The notes below the pieces were generated by a model. It saw only the letters and a list, made by a program, of their open reading frames with translations. It made no database searches and was not told the DNA's origin. A stretch of 64,000 nt of DNA, from the NCBI RefSeq assembly GCF_024713945.1, contig NC_134685.1, positions 1,426,001 through 1,490,000 on the forward strand, read 5' to 3'. Positions 2,400-63,864 of this stretch are shown one piece after another. Every line of letters begins with the position of its first letter. Positions within the stretch are counted from its first letter, which is position 1. Source of the stretch: Dermatophagoides farinae. Lineage: Eukaryota > Arthropoda > Arachnida > Sarcoptiformes > Pyroglyphidae. Both the position numbers and the translations under genes were made by a program.

Positions 2400-4795
2400 T
2401 GTAATTTTAAATAAAAAAATAATTTTTCATCCCATTCAATAAAAAGGATATCGTCAAGTGCTATCTGAAGAAGTAGCATTAGATTCACAAGGACAAATCA
2501 GACGAATGGATGGTCGACAATTGAAACAATATCAATTGAGTGATTATAAATGGCTTACATATTCACAAGTGACTGATGTTACCAATAATATTGCCCAAGG
2601 TTTAATAGCGAATGGAATTAATGAATTAAGCCATGTAATGATCATATCGGAAACACGTATTGAATGGATGCTTTGCTTTCAATCATTACTTCGTTGTAAT
2701 GCTACATTAGCCACTGTATTTTCCAATCTAGGTAATCAATCAATAATTTTTAAACTTTAGATTTATTTATTTATAAAATTTTTTTCTCATTCGAAAATTT
2801 CAAATTTATTCATTTTTTTCGTTTTTCAATCAACAGGTGTCGACGGTGTAGCTCATGGTATTGAAGAAACCGAAGTTGAAACTGTGATTGTATCATTGGA
2901 ATGCATTACATTGCTAAAATCAGCTCTTTGTCATGCGAAAAAACATTCCGTTAAACGTATCATTTATATGGATGGTCTGCAAAAACCTGAAATTGATATT
3001 GAAGAATCAATTAAAACATTTGCTTTAAGCGATATTGAAAAAATTGGTAAACAATTAATCGAAGAGAATCGCCAACAACCATATCCATCAGCCAAATTGG
3101 ATAAAACGATGCTTATAATGTATACATCCGGTACAACTGGTCTACCAAAAGCCGCTACAATGACACAGCGTCAATTTTTGGGCTCATTACGTGCATTGTT
3201 TGTCCTAGTCAGACATATAATACATGAAGCACCATTTCATACATATATTTCCTATCTACCAATGGCACATGTACTTGAACTAACGCTCGAAGTATTTTTC
3301 TGTGTTGGTAAGCTTATCAAATACCGTTATACATCGGATATGATTTGATTTGAAGATGAAATAAATCTTTTTTTATTCCCCGTTTAAATTAGGTGGTGTT
3401 CGACTTGGTTATGCATCACCATTCACATTGACAGATTCTGCACCGGGTCTAGCACGTGGTCAAAAACCTGATATAAAATTGCTACGACCAACGGTAATGA
3501 CAACCGTACCATTAGTTTTGGATCGAATCATAAAAGAAGTTAATGACAAACTACGTTCACGGACACCGGTTTCACAGCCAGTATTTCAATTTTTAATGAA
3601 TTACAAATCAATGTGGACACGATTGGGTTATCGTTGTGATATTGTTAGCAAATTATTATGTACCAAAGTTCGTGAACAACTTGGAAGTAATCTACATTTT
3701 GTCATTTGTGGTGGTGCACCATTGAATTCTAATACACAAGCGACAATAAAATCGGCTTTGGATGTAACATTAATTCAAGGTTATGGTGCCACTGAAACAA
3801 CTGGAGCTGTTCTTTGTATGGATTTCGATGATCTCGAATATGGACGTGTTGGTGCTCCACTTGGCCATGTTTATTTTCGATTACGTGATTGGCCTGATGG
3901 TGGTTATTCAGTGAAAGATAAACCAAATCCACGTGGTGAAATCCTTATCGGTGGTGATCTTGTTGCCATCAATTATTTCAAAAGACCAGAACAATCAAAT
4001 GAAGTTTTTATTACCGATCAAAATGGCATAAGATGGTTTCAAACTGGTGATGTTGGTGAATTATATCCAAATGGTACGATAAAAATTATTGATCGTTGTA
4101 AAGATCTCATTAAACTACAGAATGGTGAATATATTTCACTTGGAAAGGTAACAACAAAAAATTAAAGTTGAAATTTTCATGAGTTTTTAATTTCTACTTT
4201 TATTTTCTTCTTGTCAAAAACACAGGTCGAAGCAGCATTAAAATTCTGTCAATTAGTCGATAATATATGCGTTTATGGTGGTACATTTTCCAATGATATA
4301 GTCGCATTAATTAGTCCTAATCGTAAAGCTTTAGAACAATTAGCACAAACTATTGGTAAAAATCATCTTTCAATTGAAGAACAATGTAATGATCAACAAA
4401 TACAGCAAATAATATTTGATGAAATAATAAAAACAGCAAAACAATTATCATTGGGAAAGAAAGAAATACCAAGACGTGTACGATTAGTACCAGAAATTTG
4501 GTCACCAGATAATGGAATATTAACAGCTGCATTGAAATTGAAACGTCGTATTGTTGAACAAATGTATAAACAACAATTATATGATTTATATAATGCAAAA
4601 AAATTTAATCTTATAACAACAAATGGATATGATCAGAATAATAATAATACAACAACAACAACATCGAAAACAACAACAACAACAACAGCGACGACAACAA
4701 CTACCACCACCACCACCAATGGTGGTAATGATGTTAAACATACAACGGTGACGAATGGATCAACTACAAATCATCATCATCATCATTCATCATGA
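1964..4795 (+). CDS. Acsl: Long-chain-fatty-acid--CoA ligase (ACSL3/4 type), 5 exons, 822 aa
   Basis: This enzyme activates long-chain fatty acids with ATP and CoA to acyl-CoA, normally at ER or lipid-droplet membranes. Exons read 1964-2351, 2447-2731, 2837-3307, 3393-4147 and 4226-4795; all introns are GT-AG of 78-105 nt, in phases 1, 1, 1 and 0. The start is the ATG at 1964 (acaATGG context); the frame is open 21 codons further up but has no ATG there. Residues 7-33 form a hydrophobic anchor. The AMP-binding P-loop YTSGTTG is at 320-326, GYGATE at 511-516, the TGD adenylate motif at 599-601, and KLKR with the C-terminal catalytic-type Lys at about 737-740. Spliced text aligns with vertebrate ACSL3/4 across its length. 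Oddities are Ala after the P-loop Lys where Gly is usual, DRCKD instead of DRKKD at 615-619, a His/Asn insert near residues 67-85, and a Thr/Asn/His-rich tail after about residue 766. Two elongase genes follow on the same strand. Confidence 0.95.
2356..2396 (+). repeat. (GT)n microsatellite abutting a splice donor
   Basis: About 20 GT units begin directly after the GTAAGT donor of ACSL intron 1 and fill nearly half of that 95-nt intron. UG repeats in RNA bind splicing regulators such as TDP-43 and CELF proteins in other animals; an effect here is untested. Confidence 0.9.
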
Positions 4796-6353: not shown

Positions 6354-7260
6354 ATGGCAGCCAATTTACAAAGTGAAAATTCAAATCGTGGCATACGTTA
6401 TTATGTATCACAATATTGGCAAGAAAATGGTGATCCACGTTCAAATGGTCTACCATTGATACGTGAAGGACCATGGCCTACATTATTTGTCATCGGTATA
6501 TATCTATTTTTTGTCACACGTATGGGACCATCAATGATGCGTAAACGTGAACCATATCAATTACGATGGCCAATGTTAATATATAATACATTGATGGTCA
6601 TAATAAATGGCTATTTTCTTATACAATCAATGGTAAGTTTTCAATATTTTCATTACATATCTATTTATCAAATATCCAATATCCAATATTCAATATTATT
6701 ATTATTAGTATTGGCTAGATTTTGGTCGTGAATTATTCAATTTTAGAATGCCACGTTTAAATGAATTAAAATTACATACAAATGAAGCAAAAGAATTCAT
6801 CTGGTCATGTTATCTATATTGGTTGACAAAATTCATCGATCTCTTGGATACGGTATTTTTTGTATTGAGAAAAAAATACAATCAAATCAGCCTATTACAT
6901 GTTTATCATCATTCAGTTGTACCTATACTTGGTTGGCTATATCTTTGGTATCGTGTTGGCATACCGGCCATTTCATTGTTTTCATTTTTAAATTCTGCCG
7001 TACATGTTATGATGTATAGTTATTATGCATTGGCCGCATTAGGTCCACGTATACAGCCATATCTTTGGTGGAAACGTTATCTAACAATGATACAGATCAT
7101 ACAATTCATACTATTAATATCATATGGTGTTGCCGTATTCATTGTTTCTGATTATCCATCCGGGCCATTTTGGTTTGCCGCTAGTCAGCCGGTTATTTTT
7201 TTCTTTTTCTTTTCACATTTTTATATGAAATCTTATAATTCCAATAAAAAATTGGATTAA
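6354..7260 (+). CDS. ELOVL very-long-chain fatty acid elongase (ELOVL1/4/7 class), copy 1, 276 aa
   Basis: This is the condensing enzyme of microsomal fatty-acid elongation, joining acyl-CoA to malonyl-CoA in the ER membrane. Exons are 6354-6632 and 6709-7260, split by a 76-nt GT-AG intron in phase 0 after residue 93. The family boxes are in order: KFIDLLDT at 134-141, the histidine box HVYHH at 157-161, HVMMYSYY at 192-199, and TMIQIIQ at 219-225. Multiple hydrophobic segments fit the seven-helix ELOVL fold, and 276 aa is a normal length. Asp137 replaces the usual Glu of KxxExxDT, a conservative change. The C-terminus KKLD is a canonical KKxx ER-retrieval signal. The start ATG is the first in frame and is followed directly by a typical ELOVL N-terminus. 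A second elongase lies 3.9 kb downstream on the same strand. Substrate chain length cannot be read from sequence. Confidence 0.95.
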
Positions 7261-10772: not shown

Positions 10773-11197
10773 GTTTTTTTCTTTTTGGTTTATTTCAACT
10801 TTTCATTGTACTGGTATTGACCAAAATTCACCGAAAATTGATTCTATTTTTATGAAAAATTCCAAATTGAATTTTTTTTGTGTTTTTGTTTTTTTTTGTT
10901 CGTGTATCCTCACCATCATCATCGTTATCATTATCAGCAAATTTTTTTTTCCTTGTAAGTCACACTCTTTTTTTTTGGTTTCTTGGTCAAATGACACAAA
11001 ATCTACCGTTTTTTTTAGTTATCGATTTCACATGCAACATGAAGCATTAGTAATTGATTTTTTTTCTCGTTTTTTCAAACCAAAAAAAAAAAAAAAAAAA
11101 CACAGGAAAATTTGAAAATTTTTTTCTTGTATAAGTTTTGCCGATAAAACCAGATTTGATTTAAAATTTTTTTTTTTGTTTGAAAAATTAAATCGTG

Positions 11198-12105
11198 ATG
11201 TCATCATCAACATCAGCACGTATTATACCGGTTGATCATTCAGTGAATTATTGGGACCGTTATTGTGATCCACGTACTGTAAATTTTTGGCTCATATCAA
11301 ATGGACCATGGAAATTGGCCACTTTTACTGGTGCCTATTTGGCCATAGTATTCATTGGACAACGATGGATGCGTACACGTAAACCATATGAATTACGTAC
11401 ACCAATGTTTATCTATAATATCATATTGGTTACCATTAATGGTTATTTTCTATTCGAATCATTATTATGGATAAATTTTGGTATACGTTTATTTGATTTT
11501 AAATTTCCATCATCACAAGATCGTTCCGTGAATGCAATGCATATAGTACATATGTTTTATTATTATCAATGGACAAAATTTATTGATTATTTTGATACAT
11601 TTTTTTTCATATTACGAAAAAAAGATCGTCAACTAACGGCATTACATATTTATCATCATATTTCTGTACCGATTATTGGTTGGATTTCATCATGGGTATG
11701 TTTGTGTATTAATGATTCGATTCGTTTTTTTTTTAATTTATTGATTTTCGTTTTTCCACATAGACAAATCCAACAATGCCAGTGCTTGGCCTTTTTGCAA
11801 TGCTCAATTGTTTTTGTCATGTAATCATGTATACATATTATGCACTTTCATCATTTGGTGAACATATACAGCCATATCTTTGGTGGAAACATTATATAAC
11901 ACGTATACAATTAACACAATTTGCAATAATAGGTACATATGGTATCTGTTTACAATTATTTCATACTGGTTATCCATTATTATATCGAACATTACCAATA
12001 TCACAGGCAATCATATTTCTTTACATGTTTGGCCAATTCTATATTCGATCCTATTATCGTAATAATAATAATAATAATCGAACGATAAAACAAAAAAACC
12101 AATGA
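11198..12105 (+). CDS. ELOVL very-long-chain fatty acid elongase (ELOVL1/4/7 class), copy 2, 279 aa
   Basis: This is the second ER fatty-acid elongase of the tandem pair. Exons are 11198-11695 and 11764-12105 around a 68-nt GT-AG phase-0 intron after Trp166. The start is the ATG at 11198; the frame is open just above it but offers no other ATG. Motifs are KFIDYFDT at 127-134, HIYHH at 150-154, HVIMYTYY at 185-192 and TRIQLTQ at 212-218. As in copy 1, Asp replaces the usual Glu of KxxExxDT. The tail is Asn-rich and ends KQKNQ, a KxKxx ER-retrieval form. Comparison by eye with copy 1 shows the same block order (PYLWWK shared) with clear divergence elsewhere, so the duplication is not recent. 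The intron is not at the position used in copy 1. ELOVL specificity cannot be assigned. Confidence 0.95.
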
Positions 12106-51448: not shown

Positions 51449-53002
51449 GTGTTGGTAAATTGAAATTTTCAAAAAAAAGAGGAATACAAATACAAACATC
51501 TGTTGCATGTTGTTCAATGAATTTTTTCCCCCTTCACATTTTCCTTTGTAACACCCTCCCTCCCTCTATTTTGTTTGGTATATTTAAGATATGAAGAAAA
51601 AAAAAGTAAAAATAAATCTCAACACAATGTATTCTCCAAAAGGCATTGATGGATGAGGAAACAAAATGGGTGGGGGGAGATGATGATGATGAATTTAAAA
51701 ATAAAACCCAACACATTATTATTGTTTTTTTTTCGGTATTCGGGCAAAACAAAATAAGAAGTGAGGAGGAGGATGAGAGAAAAATCGTTGTTATTATTAT
51801 TCACATTCATTCATTCGATCAACAGCTGTCCATTTACTTTACTCATTGCTCTTTACCTATCTTTATTCTTTTTTGCAAAAATTTGAAACACAGAAAACTT
51901 TCGACATAAACACAATATAAATAAAATAGCGAGAGAATGAATACTACAGGTATGTTGATGATACTCTTTCGATATAAATATCTGGATCACATTTGGATCG
52001 ATTCGATGATATGCGAGGTAAAATAAAGTTATCCTGTAAAAAAAAACACAAACACACACACAGTTATTATTATCATCAAACAAAAAGAGAATGGGCGAGA
52101 GAGAGAAAAAAATATCGAAACTGAGAGTTTTACATTATCAAGAGAAATACGAAAGAGACCACGGCTACGATGATGATGATGATAATCGTTATGAGACCAA
52201 ACGTGCGTGGCATGTTTATCGTTTAGTTTCGTTCGTTCGTTTGTTTGTCGATTTCGAAATGTGAATGATGATGAGTGTGTGTGTGTGTATATGTGGTTGA
52301 AATGAATGAATCTTTCAAATGGTAAAAAAAACATTTGAGTGTCGTAGTTCAATGGTGTTGGTCATATGAACAAAAATCATCAATTCAATCGAACACTGAT
52401 TCTGATGATTTTTTTGTTGTTGTTGTTGTTGTTGTTGTTTGATTGTTTGTATTGATTTAGTTTAACGGAATCGTTATTTGTTTTTTGTGCTCGTGTTTTT
52501 TTTTTTTTTTTGTATTCATCAAAATTTAAAATAATAACCGTTATAATATTCGAGATTCATTCGTTCATCATCATCATCATCGTCATCGATTAATCGATTA
52601 ATCGATTGTTTTTGATGTATCTGTGTTTTTGTGTGCATGCACATTTGAAGTAGTAATTTTGTTGTTACACGGTTTTCCGTTTGCTTTTTTTTTTCGTTCT
52701 GTATTCATTTCTGTTTCTGTTATATTTCATCATCAATCCTCGTGTTTTTCTCTTTCTCGCTTTCTCTCACTGTGTGTGTTTGATGCGTTTTTTTTTATTC
52801 GTTTGTATTTCCACATCACCAAATTCTGATGACTTGATTGATTGATTTTTTCTGGTCTCAAAATGTTTTCTTCGTTTGCTGATTGGTATGATGATGATGT
52901 GATGAATTTTACATTTTTCTAAATGAATGAATTATTTTTTTTATATCTGGATACCATTTTCATTTTTTTTTTCTTTGAATTTTTTCTTTTTCATCATTTC
53001 AG
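48301..53002. other. Region upstream of the first visible SPSB exon
   Basis: No gene is supported. It contains GT tracts (for example 51419-51444), GAT/ATC runs, TTG runs (52413-52439) and the 22-bp dyad at 52585-52606. The acceptor TTTCAG ends at 53002, so at least the final part is an intron of the SPSB transcript. Confidence 0.5.
52585..52606. repeat. 22-bp palindrome: three ATCGAT units joined by TA
   Basis: ATCGAT is repeated three times with TA spacers, giving perfect self-complementarity and two TTAATC/GATTAA homeodomain-type cores. It sits about 400 bp upstream of the SPSB exon acceptor. Confidence 0.5.
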
Positions 53003-53912
53003 GTCGTCACAACAATCGGCTGTGAATACACAACAACAATTACAAGGAACATCATCATCATCAACGGATGTACAATTTCATCAGCAATTAACAATTTCTT
53101 CATCAACATCATCATTAGATAGACATCATCTTGAATCATTACCAGAATTATCATTCTATTCGATTGGATCCAATAATACAACATCATCATCATCGTCATC
53201 ATCCACTAATAATCATCATCAATTTATAATCAAAGATAATAATCAAATATTATCACAATCACAGCAACAACAACAACAGGTGTCAATTTATCCAACAATA
53301 CAATTATCAACTTTGGCCGGAAATCGAAATATTGAAACACTTGTACATCATCAACAACAACAACAACAACAACGGCCATATCTATCGTATCATCAACAAC
53401 GGCAATCATCATCATCATCATTGCCATCAATAGGTGCTATTTCATCATCATCATCAACATCCACAACAACAATTGTTCCAACAAATCGTTTACGTTCATT
53501 GATACAACAACAACAAAACAAGTTATCGGCAACAGCAAATCTTCAACATCAACATCAACAACAGCAACGAATAAATCAAACGAATCAATTGAAATTGAAA
53601 CAACAACGACGTACAACAATACATCGACAAGCTATAACCGCTACAAATCAACATTGGACAATCAATAGTATTTGCTGTTGTCCATTTAGTCAAAGATTTC
53701 CGCATTCATTTTATCAACATCATCGTTATAAATTGGATAATCTAATACGACATAATAATAGTTCTTGGCCATCGTCATCGTCCACATCGTCAGATTCATC
53801 ATCAATATCGGCTGCAACATTATCATTAAATCGTTTGATTGCTGCCGATTCTCGACAACAATTACAACAACAATCAATATCGGATAATCAATATCCATTT
53901 TCAAATATCATA
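53003..53912 (+). other. Exonic Gln/Ser/His-rich open frame ahead of the SPSB core (leader or N-terminal extension)
   Basis: After the acceptor at 53001-53002 the SPSB frame stays open for about 303 codons with no ATG before 53913. The text is rich in Gln, Ser, His, Asn and Thr from CAA, TCA and CAT repeats. To be translated it needs an ATG in an unseen upstream exon, joined in phase 2. Otherwise it is 5'UTR, since CAA/TCA/CAT repeats seldom create stops. A short less repetitive segment around 53640-53740 ([12 protein letters not shown]) slightly favours coding. Confidence 0.5.
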
Positions 53913-56900
53913 ATGGGACAAAAATTTAGTAATTTTATGGGTAGTAATAGCGGAAGTAGTAGTAGTAGTGCTGCTATAATCAATTCAACAACAACAACAG
54001 CAGCAGCAGCAGCAACAATGGCACCTATAGTCAATGATATTGGTTCGATGGTTGTTAATAATTCAAATAAAACTGTGATGCGTGATCATCATTATCAACA
54101 ATCATTACCATTCCATAGTACATCACCATCTCATCATCATCATCATCATCATCAGCATTTTCATCATCATCAAGATGTTTCACCATTTACACGTTCATCA
54201 TCTACACAATCAGCGTCTTCTTCCGCATCATCATCGCCATCGATATCCGGTACAAATTCACCGGCATCAATGTCACCATTACATAATAACCATAATCATA
54301 ATCATAATCATCATCATTCTATACAGATGATGAATGATACATCATCAACATATCATTTTTGTTCAAATAATGGTCATTGTGCCTTAGAAGAACCAGAAAG
54401 ACCTGATAGATTAGATTCATTATTGGATATGCCACCGGCATCATTACAAATACAGAAACAACATGGTTGGAATGAGAATGATCGTTCATTAAATATAATT
54501 GTTGTTGAACAGGATCCACGTATTGTACATCGTCATCCTGTTGCACAAAGTACAGATTGTGTACGTGGCCTAATAGGCTATTCAAAAGGTTTACATGTAT
54601 GGGAAATTAAATGGCCATTACGGCAACGTGGAACACATGCATGTGTTGGTGTTGCAACCGCTGAAGCCGCCTTACATTCAAATGGTTATCATCCATTGAT
54701 CGGTGCAACGGGCGAATCATGGGGCTGGGATCTTGGCCGTAATCTATTATATCATGATCTTAAATCACAGAATTATGGTCGTCAATCACCACGTGATAAT
54801 AATAATTATGGCCGAATTTATCAACATCAATTTGCACATGATCCACAATTTGTTGCACCAGAATCATTTTTAGTTGTATTAGATATGGATAAAGGAACAT
54901 TATCTTATATGGCACATGGCCAATATTTAGGTATTGCATTCAATACTGATGATGGTATTAAGGGTAAAACCTTATATCCAATTATTAGTTCAGTATGGGG
55001 ACATTGTGAGATTACTATGCGATATATTAATGGATTAAATCGTAAGTAAATCATATCAATACCAATTATTATTATTATTATATAATCATTATTACTAAGA
55101 CATTCTATTTTCGCTTTCATAACTCTAATGATTATAATGATTATAATGATGATGATGATGATAATAATAACTAAACCACTTTCTCTTGGTGTGGTGGTAT
55201 AGCTGTTATTATTATTATTATTATTATTATTTATACATGTTTATATGACCATTTCAGTCATGAAAAACAAAAATTTTGGTAGAAATATCCAGTCTTCCTA
55301 TTTTGGTCATTTTTTATTTATTTATTTATTTTTGATTCATCAAAAAAAAAAACTAGTTTCTCTTTTTTTTAGTTTTGACTATATATTTGTTTCATTCCAC
55401 ATTCTGGTTTTTTTTACCGTTTTTTTTCTACATTCATTTATTTATATAAAGGGAAATCAGGAAAAAAAATCTTAGCAGAAGACTTGTTGTATATTAATGA
55501 TTTTGACAGTAAAAAAAATAAAATATAGCCCATCATTGATGAAACGACAGATTTATTCGTCGTCTGTCTTTATTCATCTGTGTGTGTGTGTGATGGGCGT
55601 AATTTTTTTTTTGTGTGTGTGTGTGTGTAAATAAAAATAACGAAAATGAAAACAAACGGCAGTGTGTTGTGTGAATTCATTGATCTGACGATGATGATGA
55701 TGATGGCTCCAAAAAAAAAAGTTGATTCTATTCGATTTTAATTTCATTTCTATTCATTTTTTTCTCTATTTTCTCTTTTCAAATATAGCAATTAGGTCAC
55801 CAAACCACTTGTTGTTGTTGTTGTTGTTGTCTAGTTGTTACTAGTCTACCTTATAAATACCGATTTTTTTTTCATAAGCCCAGAAACGAAATAAAAAAAA
55901 AATCCACATGGGCGCTTTAGTTATTTATTATTTGTATATATATGTGGATATTGCTTCATTTCATTCAATACCATAACGCATCATCATCATCATCATCATC
56001 ATATGTGAATATATTGGACTTTATTTTTCTTTCGTAGTAGTAGTTGTTGTTGTTGTTGTTGTCGTTGTTGTTGTTGTTTTCATCATTCATTTTCTTTTTT
56101 TATTTCGTTCGTTAACATCACATCATTAGATATTGATTGTTGTATTATTTAATAGTATACATGTGAGTGCAAACTATAAATTTTCCCCTTTTCAATGATG
56201 ATGATGATGATGATGATGATTTCCACATTGTAGAAATCTTTGGAAATATTGTCATCATCATATAGTATAAAGACCTGAATGAATTGAATGGAGCCATAGC
56301 TCATTCACACCTGGATATATTCATCAATGTTGATAGTGGTGGTGGTGGTGATGGTGATGGTGTGATGTTTGATCACTTTCTCTTTCAAAATCACAAAGCA
56401 TTACCTATCTATCTGTGTGTGTGTGTCAGTGTTTTTTCTTGTTTCATTTGATTTGATGATTCAAATGATGATTGACAGTCTATGAATATTTCTCTTTTTC
56501 TAGAAACGAAATGTTTCTATTTTTATATTCATCATGTCTGATGATGATCCATTTCATTCATCATAGTTTTTCTCTCTCGTGTGGATTCAAGAAAAAAAAA
56601 TTTATTTCTATCTTTTCAATATTATATCATCATCATCATTAACATGTCAATATGTTGTTTTTGTTGTTGTTGTTGTTGATTGATAATGGGTTGATGATCG
56701 AAATGGATGAATTGACGACAAACATGAAGAAATGTTCAGGATTTTTTCTCTCTCTATTTTTACGTTTTATTATTTCATTTCATGCTAGAATAAAAGGATT
56801 GAAAGTTGATGAAAAAAAATTGGATTCTTGTGTTTTATGATTCTCGTGCTAAAATCGCTGGAAAATGAAACAAAATTTTCCTTTAATTAGCAACAGGTTA

Positions 56901-59902: not shown

Positions 59903-61482
59903 TTATGCTTTTGTTTCCTCTTCTTCGGGTGCAACATTTTCTGCCATTTGTGATTCGGTAACCATTTCCTCGGCTGTTAGATTTTCTTCTTCACCAACTG
60001 CTCCACCATCTTGGATTCGTTGTTCAGTAGTATTTGCATCAACATCAGCTACTTCTTCACCTTCACCGACAATTTCTTCGCCTTCAGCCATGGTAGTAGC
60101 TTGAATTTCATTATCAGAAGTTTTACCCATAATTTGACCATCAGATTGTCCAAGATCAACAGCTGATATTGCACCAATTCTTGATGATTCTCTTTCAATT
60201 AATTCAGTACTTGCTTTTATACTTAATGGTATTAATTTCGTTGTCGGCACATCAAAATAACGATCAGCAAGTATACGATCACATTCGATACGATTTTTAG
60301 GATCTATACTGAATATTCGATTACATAAATTACGAACATGTACATTCATTTCATGTTTTCGAACAAAATCACGCCATTGATTAGAGAATTTTGTTCGTTC
60401 ATCACGTACATTGAATGGATAACGTTTTGTACACATTGCCACTAATAATACACCCAATGACCAGATATCCGCTTTGGATGGATCATATTGTCGTTGAAAT
60501 GCTTCTGGTGGTAGAAAATAATTTCTTCTTACACGACGTTCAACATTTTGTAATAATAATTTTTTTGCATCAACTTGATAGTAAAAAACGGCTTTACTCC
60601 AACCACATAGTTTCAATTGATTATTCATATCGAATAGAATATGCTGTAATTTTATGTAACGATGTGCGACGCCCAATTTTTGTAGCACACCAATACCGGA
60701 CACTATTTGACGCATATATTCACGTATTTCATTCGGTTGCATTGGTGTTGGTGATCGTACCAGATCATACATTGTTGGACTAGCTTGACATTCATCCATA
60801 AAAATGTATAGTTTCACTGCTTCCATCTGGTGGTGGTGATGTCGATGATCAAACCAGGATTTAAAAAGAGAAAAAATTCGAAAACAAAAAATTTAAAAAA
60901 AAATAAATAAAGTAAATAAATTTATTATACCTGAAATATTTCATAAATTTTAAGAAAAATCGATGTCGTTGGACCACGTCTTATTGTCGATATGAAACGC
61001 ATGATACGAACAGAATAACGAAGTAAATTTGAACGAAATCTTGGTGAACATTCAGCTAGATTGGTTATTTTCACTACCATCGGTGGTTGTTCCAAACCCG
61101 ATGATTGTGAATTAACATCTTGTTTGTTGGCACGAAAAATTTGTGAATATTCTGTCTGATTCAATATACATGAACGATCGATCCAAAAACCGGTCGTATT
61201 GATGGCCATTTCATTTCGTATCATAACGGCACCAGACATTGATTCAATTTTATGAATTTTACTAACAATAGTTGATGGTATCGATAATTTACTACTACGA
61301 TTATGATGATGTGATGAATGTTTTGATGATGATTCATCTGTTTGTAATGGATCATTATCTTTACTTTTTTTCGATCGATGTCTTTCACGTTGATTTTGTG
61401 ATTGTTGTTGTTGTTGTTTTGCTTTGGATTTACGTTTTATTGTTCGTGATTCTTCATTATTATCATTTCGATTTCTAGCCAT
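59903..61482 (-). CDS. Serine/threonine kinase-fold protein, predicted pseudokinase, 491 aa
   Basis: Exons are 61482-60931 and 60826-59903 with a 104-nt GT-AG intron in phase 0; the join restores the beta4-beta5 region (FLKIYEIFQ-MEAVKLYIFMDE). Residues 1-75 are basic and Gln/Ser/His-rich. The kinase core spans about 95-370. The ATP-site Lys survives (VVK, 138), but the Gly-rich loop lacks its glycines (LNQTEYSQIF), the aC-helix Glu is not evident, HRD is HRY (239-241), the catalytic-loop Asn is His246, and DFG is Gly-Trp-Ser (259-261). Structural anchors remain: PPE at 290-292 and DIWSLG at 304-309. Residues about 395-491 form an acidic Glu-rich tail. Remaining text looks most like CAMK/TSSK-type kinases, a judgement by eye. 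Since both catalytic aspartates are missing, phosphotransfer is unlikely and a scaffold or allosteric role is more plausible. The ATG (aagATGG) is the first in the frame. Confidence 0.85.
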
Positions 61483-62445: not shown

Positions 62446-63864
62446 ATGGATTCTCGATTTTTTAGTCGAAATTTACCATCACTCTGTTCATCGGCTAAAT
62501 CCTCATCCACTCATCCATTATCATTGTCTTCAGAATCATCATCTAAAGATGAATTAAATCAGATAAAATCATTAAATATTCGTTCAATTCATCATCATCA
62601 TCAAGATTCCATAAATTTTGCATCACGATTAATTTTATTTCAAACATTTTTAGGTACCACTTATCGTGGTAGCTATTTTCATTATTTTTCACATTCTAAA
62701 TTTAATCATAAATGTCTCAAATGGCTATCATGTCTATATGAAATGATCACATTCATTGGCATATTATTATTCATGCGAAATACGTTTGATAATTCAATAT
62801 TTCAAAGTATGTTCAATTATACAAACAAAACTTATACAATGATATTTGTATTCAAATTGACTGGCTTTTGTCTATTGTTGGAACAAATTGTTATGAAATT
62901 CATGACATTATTTCATGGTTACAGTATTGTTGGTGTTGTTTATGAAATTGCTAAAAATTCTCATTGGAAAAAACGTTATGATTGCCGTTTTATGTATCTT
63001 TATGCATTATTTCAGCTTAGCATCAATATTATTTGCTTTTTATTGATAACTAATTATGTTGGCTATTCTATCTATATGAAAATAGCTTATGTAGCCGGGG
63101 CAATCATTTTTGGTACAAGTAAACTTTCCGTTGCAACAATACATTCATTTGTATCGGTTTTAATCAATCATCGTATTCAAGGTATTTTTATTTTTATCAA
63201 GAATTTTCAATTTTTAATTAATGAAATTTTTCACACAGATTGGAAAAATCGATTCCATCAATATCAAAATTATTCTAAATTGTTACGTGAAATTATTGAA
63301 CAACGTAATCATCTAAAAGAATTAAATCAACGATTATCATTGATAATGTTTGTGAAAGTTATTGTTAATTCAATTGAATTGGCTAGTTTGATTTGTTTCA
63401 TTGAAGATATGTATTCAACTGGACAAGATTCAGTAATAATAATGGCCATATTTTGTTTTCTATTAAGCACTTGGTTTGAATTATTTATCGTTTGTACATC
63501 ATCACAATCAATACAAGATCAAATGAATGATTTCATACAATACATACAGGATTGTATTGCCATAATGTCGGATAATAATGAAATGATTATTTCATCATTA
63601 AGTATTGATAATCAAAATAATAATAATGGCAACAATGATGATAATGGTAATGATAATCAAACAAAAACAACAAACCATCAACAACACATTGTTAACAACA
63701 GACGTTATAATGATGATGATTATCGTTGTTTAGATCAAATACAACGATTAGAAAAGAATTTCAATTTCAATGTTATGGGATTCATTGTATTATGTAATGT
63801 AACATTATTAACAATATTAGGAAATGTATTAAGTTTTGCCATATTGCTTATACAGACAAAATAA
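62446..63864 (+). CDS. Gustatory receptor-like seven-transmembrane protein, 472 aa
   Basis: This is an intronless membrane protein with about seven hydrophobic helices, near 93-110, 131-155, 182-206, 213-240, 296-320, 328-351 and 440-470, and no signal peptide. This layout fits the insect-type gustatory receptor (Gr) superfamily of ligand-gated ion channels in the plasma membrane. The last helix, NFNVMGFIVLCNVTLLTILGN and onward to ILLIQ, keeps the Gr-like order, but the family TYxxxxxQF motif is reduced to SFAILLIQT. The N-terminal 60 residues are Ser- and His-rich, and an Asn/Asp-rich insert (389-425) lengthens the loop before helix 7. A minimal upstream ORF, ATG GAA TAA at 62438-62446, overlaps the start as TAATG. 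Candidate AATAAA is at 63992-63997. Ligand is unknown; an unrelated orphan seven-helix family is the alternative. Confidence 0.75.
   Translation: MDSRFFSRNLPSLCSSAKSSSTHPLSLSSESSSKDELNQIKSLNIRSIHHHHQDSINFASRLILFQTFLGTTYRGSYFHYFSHSKFNHKCLKWLSCLYEMITFIGILLFMRNTFDNSIFQSMFNYTNKTYTMIFVFKLTGFCLLLEQIVMKFMTLFHGYSIVGVVYEIAKNSHWKKRYDCRFMYLYALFQLSINIICFLLITNYVGYSIYMKIAYVAGAIIFGTSKLSVATIHSFVSVLINHRIQGIFIFIKNFQFLINEIFHTDWKNRFHQYQNYSKLLREIIEQRNHLKELNQRLSLIMFVKVIVNSIELASLICFIEDMYSTGQDSVIIMAIFCFLLSTWFELFIVCTSSQSIQDQMNDFIQYIQDCIAIMSDNNEMIISSLSIDNQNNNNGNNDDNGNDNQTKTTNHQQHIVNNRRYNDDDYRCLDQIQRLEKNFNFNVMGFIVLCNVTLLTILGNVLSFAILLIQTK

Follow-up and report, generated by a model that had tools for sequence, protein, structure and literature searches.

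Tribbles proteins are CAMK-related pseudokinases, said to be scaffolds with a functional C-terminal tail; they keep the HRD motif, carry SLE in place of DFG and bind COP1 through their tail. The gene described here lies at positions 59903..61482, on the reverse strand, of the window, i.e. the whole 64,000-bp stretch that was analysed (C9:1426001-1490000), taken from the 62.4-Mb, 22-contig assembly of Dermatophagoides farinae. The species assignment is supported by L062, a gene of the ML family in this assembly, which matches the PDB entry for Der f 2 along 122 residues and differs from it at few of them. Judged from its sequence, the 491-aa product of the gene at 59903..61482 is a pseudokinase as well, with a kinase fold in which several catalytic residues are lost, encoded by a gene that is maintained. 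As in Tribbles, the protein is CAMK-related and a scaffold role is proposed for it, but it carries HRY and Gly-Trp-Ser (GWS) where Tribbles carry HRD and SLE.

Two other comparable systems concern the TSSK class of kinases. A TSSK-class protein-kinase-like non-kinase (gi 12839087, 292 aa) was counted as lacking the catalytic Asp (PMC2754085), which the window protein lacks too; it is a single entry, however, and the available text of that source describes no family with a replacement motif. In mites, TSSK expansions are reported for D. pteronyssinus (17), S. scabiei (13) and L. deliense (10), and all 17 annotated TSSK-like genes of D. pteronyssinus are male-enriched (PMC12105342); the word "pseudokinase" does not occur in the main text of that paper. 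The window protein shares the CAMK-type kinase domain with the TSSKs, and the nearest active kinases in its own genome look TSSK-like, whereas it differs from them in the loss of catalytic residues and in possessing a basic head and an acidic tail. Multicopy dead enzymes are also described in a related mite, Sarcoptes scabiei, as a family of inactive cysteine proteases (PMC5956821), although these are proteases and not kinases. As a whole, pseudokinases, one TSSK-class entry and the mite TSSK-like expansion are already known, while a family of pseudokinases in mites was not seen described among the literature matches listed, as far as their available text extends.

The initial annotation had proposed a kinase-fold protein lacking both catalytic aspartates, to be checked by a kinase profile search. 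This search yielded a Pfam Pkinase (PF00069) match over aa 177-375 with 91.7 bits (E 6.5e-26; gathering cut-off 31.7), and 914 distinct PDB sequences match the protein at E ≤ 0.001, so the kinase match is not due to chance. Less favourable to a detailed reading of the fold is the model itself, built for the paralogue L033 only, which is 44% identical to the window protein across the domain from VVK on and just 28% in the part encoded by exon 1.

Splicing and translation gave exactly the coordinates first annotated, with an open frame and clean splice sites. Exon 1 (60931..61482, ATG at 61482) encodes aa 1-184, comprising a basic Gln-rich head and a degenerate N-lobe, and is followed by a 104-bp intron (60827..60930) in phase 0 after EIFQ, with GT-AG borders (GTATAA...CACCAG) and in-frame stops within; exon 2 (59903..60826) encodes aa 185-491 and the stop, with the C-lobe and the acidic tail. 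The opposite charges of the two ends, already perceived in the initial annotation, amount to a net +11 for aa 1-90 and a net -21 for aa 381-491 (59903..60238, stop included).

Concerning the active site, the replacements first noticed are found again in the translation and the alignments: HRY stands at the HRD position (60656..60664), Gly-Trp-Ser-Lys at the DFG position (60593..60604), and there is no glycine at the position of the Gly-rich loop, while the VAIK-type Lys138 (VVK, 61069..61071), PPE (the APE motif, 60503..60511) and DIWSLG in alphaF (60452..60469) are kept. Two further losses, not seen before, came from the alignment with relatives: the alphaC Glu is replaced by Ser157 (61012..61014) and the catalytic-loop Asn by His246, the catalytic-loop Lys being kept. 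These two positions are Glu and Asn, respectively, in all eight active relatives compared. With the HRD and DFG Asp residues, four catalytic residues are lost, and the window protein should not be expected to carry out ordinary phosphotransfer.

A search with the window protein against its own genome gave 62 matches, two of which are the gene's own exons. The best 30 of the 62 correspond to loci L031-L060, of which the 28 non-window ones were read; the other 32 matches include at least exon 1 of L034 and several kinases that also belong to the PF00069 set, and the family size given here is a lower bound. L033, L034 and L035 are 36, 46 and 36% identical to the window protein, L036 and L037 are more distant, and all five have lost both the HRD and the DFG Asp. 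Hereafter, A is the window gene and B to F are L033 to L037, in that order, with A, B, C, D and F forming the core pseudokinases. In total, 13 pseudokinase loci were recognised (A, L033-L037, L043, L044, L050, L052, L056, L058 and L060), dispersed over contigs C1, C2, C3, C4 and C9. The DFG Asp is absent in all 13 and the HRD Asp in 12; L043 keeps the latter and was placed with the pseudokinases since it has Asn for the DFG Asp. For the window gene and L052, the profile alignment is shifted at the DFG columns, and the letters were taken from a separate reading of the loci. By comparison, both Asp residues are present in 30/30 of the best PF00069 loci (L001-L030, the best 30 of 134 matches, from 122 scored of 437 candidates), a set biased toward intact kinases. 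The PF00069 gathering cut-off was passed by all ten further family members tested, a set without L034 and L052.

The replacements are themselves shared. Ser at the alphaC Glu position occurs in four of the five core pseudokinases (A, B, C and D, not F) and also in E, and Gly259 and His246 are each found in 4/5 core members. Across A, B and C, 73 of the 244 domain columns are invariant, GWSK included. Of the 69 columns conserved in at least four of the five core members, 32 agree with the consensus of the eight active relatives and 37 differ, so the pseudokinase family has a constraint of its own. By eye, the pattern [G/N][F/W]xx[S/A]xx[Y/F][W/Y/F] at the DFG region fits 8 of the 13 loci. Single scans of a viral and of a prokaryote contig collection gave 107 and 225 pattern matches, respectively, with no relative confirmed by tblastn.

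Outside the domain, likeness is restricted to certain members, and heads and tails vary within the family. The window gene and L034 have the intron place and phase in common (after EIFQ and EIFR, respectively), and their tails align with a score of 89, the top of 300 shuffles being 65; this includes the stretch AEEMVTES (59951..59974), which is like ADEMTYES of L034. A similar stretch, NDEIVKQS, was also met by pattern search in the tail of D. As for the other pairs, the A-B and A-D tail scores were not above those of shuffles (85/300 and 135/300 as high) and that of B-C was weak (7/300).

The descent of these genes was analysed in a tree built from 50 kinase domains of the same genome, i.e. 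the 13 pseudokinases and 37 others, with no named TSSK included. Two loci of mixed character, L059 (HRN, with the Asp kept in TDY) and L042 (HRD kept, with DFS), were assigned to the 37 others and to the 13 rows designated as TSSK-like. With all columns, the 13 pseudokinases fall on one side of a branch (98/89), within which a group of eight, including the window gene, reaches 100/98 and a second group of five 100/100; pseudokinases and TSSK-like rows together are separated from the 24 other kinases at 100/98.6, these rows, L059 among them, having been chosen after the tree was seen. When the catalytic columns are left out, the groups of eight and five persist (99/97 and 100/100). The window gene is thus placed by sequence in a well-supported clade of at least eight dead-kinase genes, or 13 loci with the second group, with or near TSSK-like kinases, a setting that the initial annotation did not contain.

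Several results weaken the case for a single, TSSK-derived origin. Once the catalytic columns are removed, the two pseudokinase groups are no longer united with support (53/0) and the grouping of pseudokinases with TSSK-like kinases is missing from the free tree; enforcing the latter gave a likelihood 6.59 higher and a p value of the approximately unbiased test (p-AU) of 0.717, so it is not rejected. Since the union is lost but the wider grouping is not rejected, the sequences point to one or two origins of the pseudokinases, either with the TSSK-like (CAMK-type) kinases of this genome or close to them; neither a single origin nor a restriction to mites is claimed. The name TSSK itself is a loose one for the nearest active relatives: although the TSSK-like row L024 has TSSK6 as its top PDB match, row L021 is best matched by MARK3, with TSSK6 not among the best 60 of 110, and the profile of alignment A3 is also best matched by MARK3 (best 60 of 271). 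The window protein itself has CIPK23 and MARK3 as its top PDB matches (best 60 of 914).

Three side observations concern individual loci. The matches of L050 and L058 (C4:458566-460464) are separated by about 1 kb, no other two of the 13 being close neighbours, and might be tandem duplicates; they are joined at 99/95 in the all-column tree, and both are long branches in the tree without catalytic columns. L036 (C1:1789395-1789961) lies about 2.4 kb from an opposite-strand kinase match (C1:1792314-1793120), possibly a local duplication. The TSSK-like L042 (C10:1056205-1056690) continues after its DFS with LSILW, like the SxIYW of some pseudokinases, and could be an intermediate; the tree gives no such placement.

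As regards function, the reading that we favour, at about even chances, is that the window protein is a kinase-fold scaffold or allosteric partner without catalysis, in a clade with or near the TSSK-like kinases and probably acting in the male germline. A non-catalytic interaction role is suggested because four catalytic residues are lost while the C-lobe is kept, and the male germline is the probable site because the TSSK-like genes of D. pteronyssinus are male-enriched. The retained C-lobe (PPE, DIWSLG and the alphaF-alphaG region) would serve as a docking surface, the basic head and the acidic tail would make additional contacts, and the partners would be active TSSK-like kinases or their substrates. 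More generally, the dead-kinase family members are probably binding partners rather than enzymes, with perhaps a role in male reproduction. This proposal is weakened on the side of expression: the 13 putative TSSKs up in Psoroptes ovis males were identified by comparison with tritonymphs, not females (PMC6806590), and the published male-enriched TSSK-like genes may or may not include pseudokinases. For the window gene, both the germline and the scaffold role are what we infer.

A regulator acting outside the male germline, for example in neurons, gut or cuticle and with no reproductive tie, would accord with the dispersal of the 13 loci over five contigs and with the variation of heads and tails between members; we regard it as unlikely, since the closest active kinases have a TSSK-like appearance and such genes are male-enriched in D. 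pteronyssinus (PMC12105342). It is also improbable that the protein is a structural component, a kinase-fold brick of the sperm or of another cell structure which regulates nothing. Such a part has a parallel in mouse TSSK6, the top PDB match of L024, which shares the doublet microtubules of sperm with EFCAB3 and CFAP97D1, but the authors of that work argue for a primarily enzymatic, regulatory function of TSSK6 (PMC13066092). Moreover, aflagellate sperm are listed among the putative Acari traits in a chelicerate phylogeny (PMC6534568), so any sperm role in mites would lie elsewhere than on the flagellar doublet.

An unconventional catalyst, in which the retained Lys and the remodelled GWSK site would bind nucleotide for a non-standard reaction instead of Mg-dependent phosphotransfer, is very improbable: the VAIK-type and catalytic-loop Lys residues are indeed kept, and Gly259 and His246 recur in most core members, but all four catalytic residues named above (alphaC Glu, HRD Asp, catalytic-loop Asn, DFG Asp) are gone and the Gly-rich loop is absent.

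The scaffold or allosteric partner role presupposes a maintained gene. Between paralogues of this one genome, Nei-Gojobori (NG86) ratios of nonsynonymous to synonymous divergence (dN/dS) were 0.34-0.54 in all six pairs of A-D, rough values given a dS of 1.14-1.72, near saturation, and 0.27-0.57 in 17 of the 21 pairs of active relatives, equally rough and with dS saturated in the remaining four. Four-fold sites are near random for A-B (7/31 vs. 9.7 expected) and not near random for A-C (19/33 vs. 9.8), while amino-acid identity among A, B and C is 41-45%, for a shuffled mean of 5.7%. Because its paralogue dN/dS resembles that of the active relatives, the window gene seems not to be dying, and the view of the initial annotation that it is no decaying copy is upheld by the open frames and clean splices, the intron place shared with L034, the related losses in L033-L037 and these ratios, with dS near saturation. 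That it is a decaying copy without function, as the loss of several catalytic residues and the roughness of the dN/dS values might suggest, is barely credible in view of two exons open across 491 codons with clean splice sites, the 73 invariant columns with GWSK included, dN/dS values comparable to those of active relatives and an A-C tail likeness beyond shuffles.

Other coding features were noticed elsewhere in the window. On the forward strand, an open frame at 62446-63861 has many hydrophobic stretches and matches no Pfam family at E 0.01; it gives the impression of a membrane protein with several passes, of the gustatory receptor type perhaps. ELO (fatty acid elongase) domains are encoded by two exons at 6709-7254 and 11192-11818 (forward strand), an AMP-binding exon lies at 3365-4159, and the open frame at 52923-55043 (forward strand), some 707 aa long, has a SPRY domain close to its end.

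A wider, speculative and rather unlikely reading is that the astigmatid TSSK-like radiation gave rise to a non-catalytic arm of at least 8 to 13 proteins, in which DFG would have become a new binding motif and whose members would be scaffold or structural parts of the male germline in animals whose sperm are reported as aflagellate. A multigene clade of dead kinases beside active relatives, within one genome, offers a natural series on the kinase fold without catalysis and, if it proves male-specific, would bear on the use of TSSK-type proteins by sperm without flagella.
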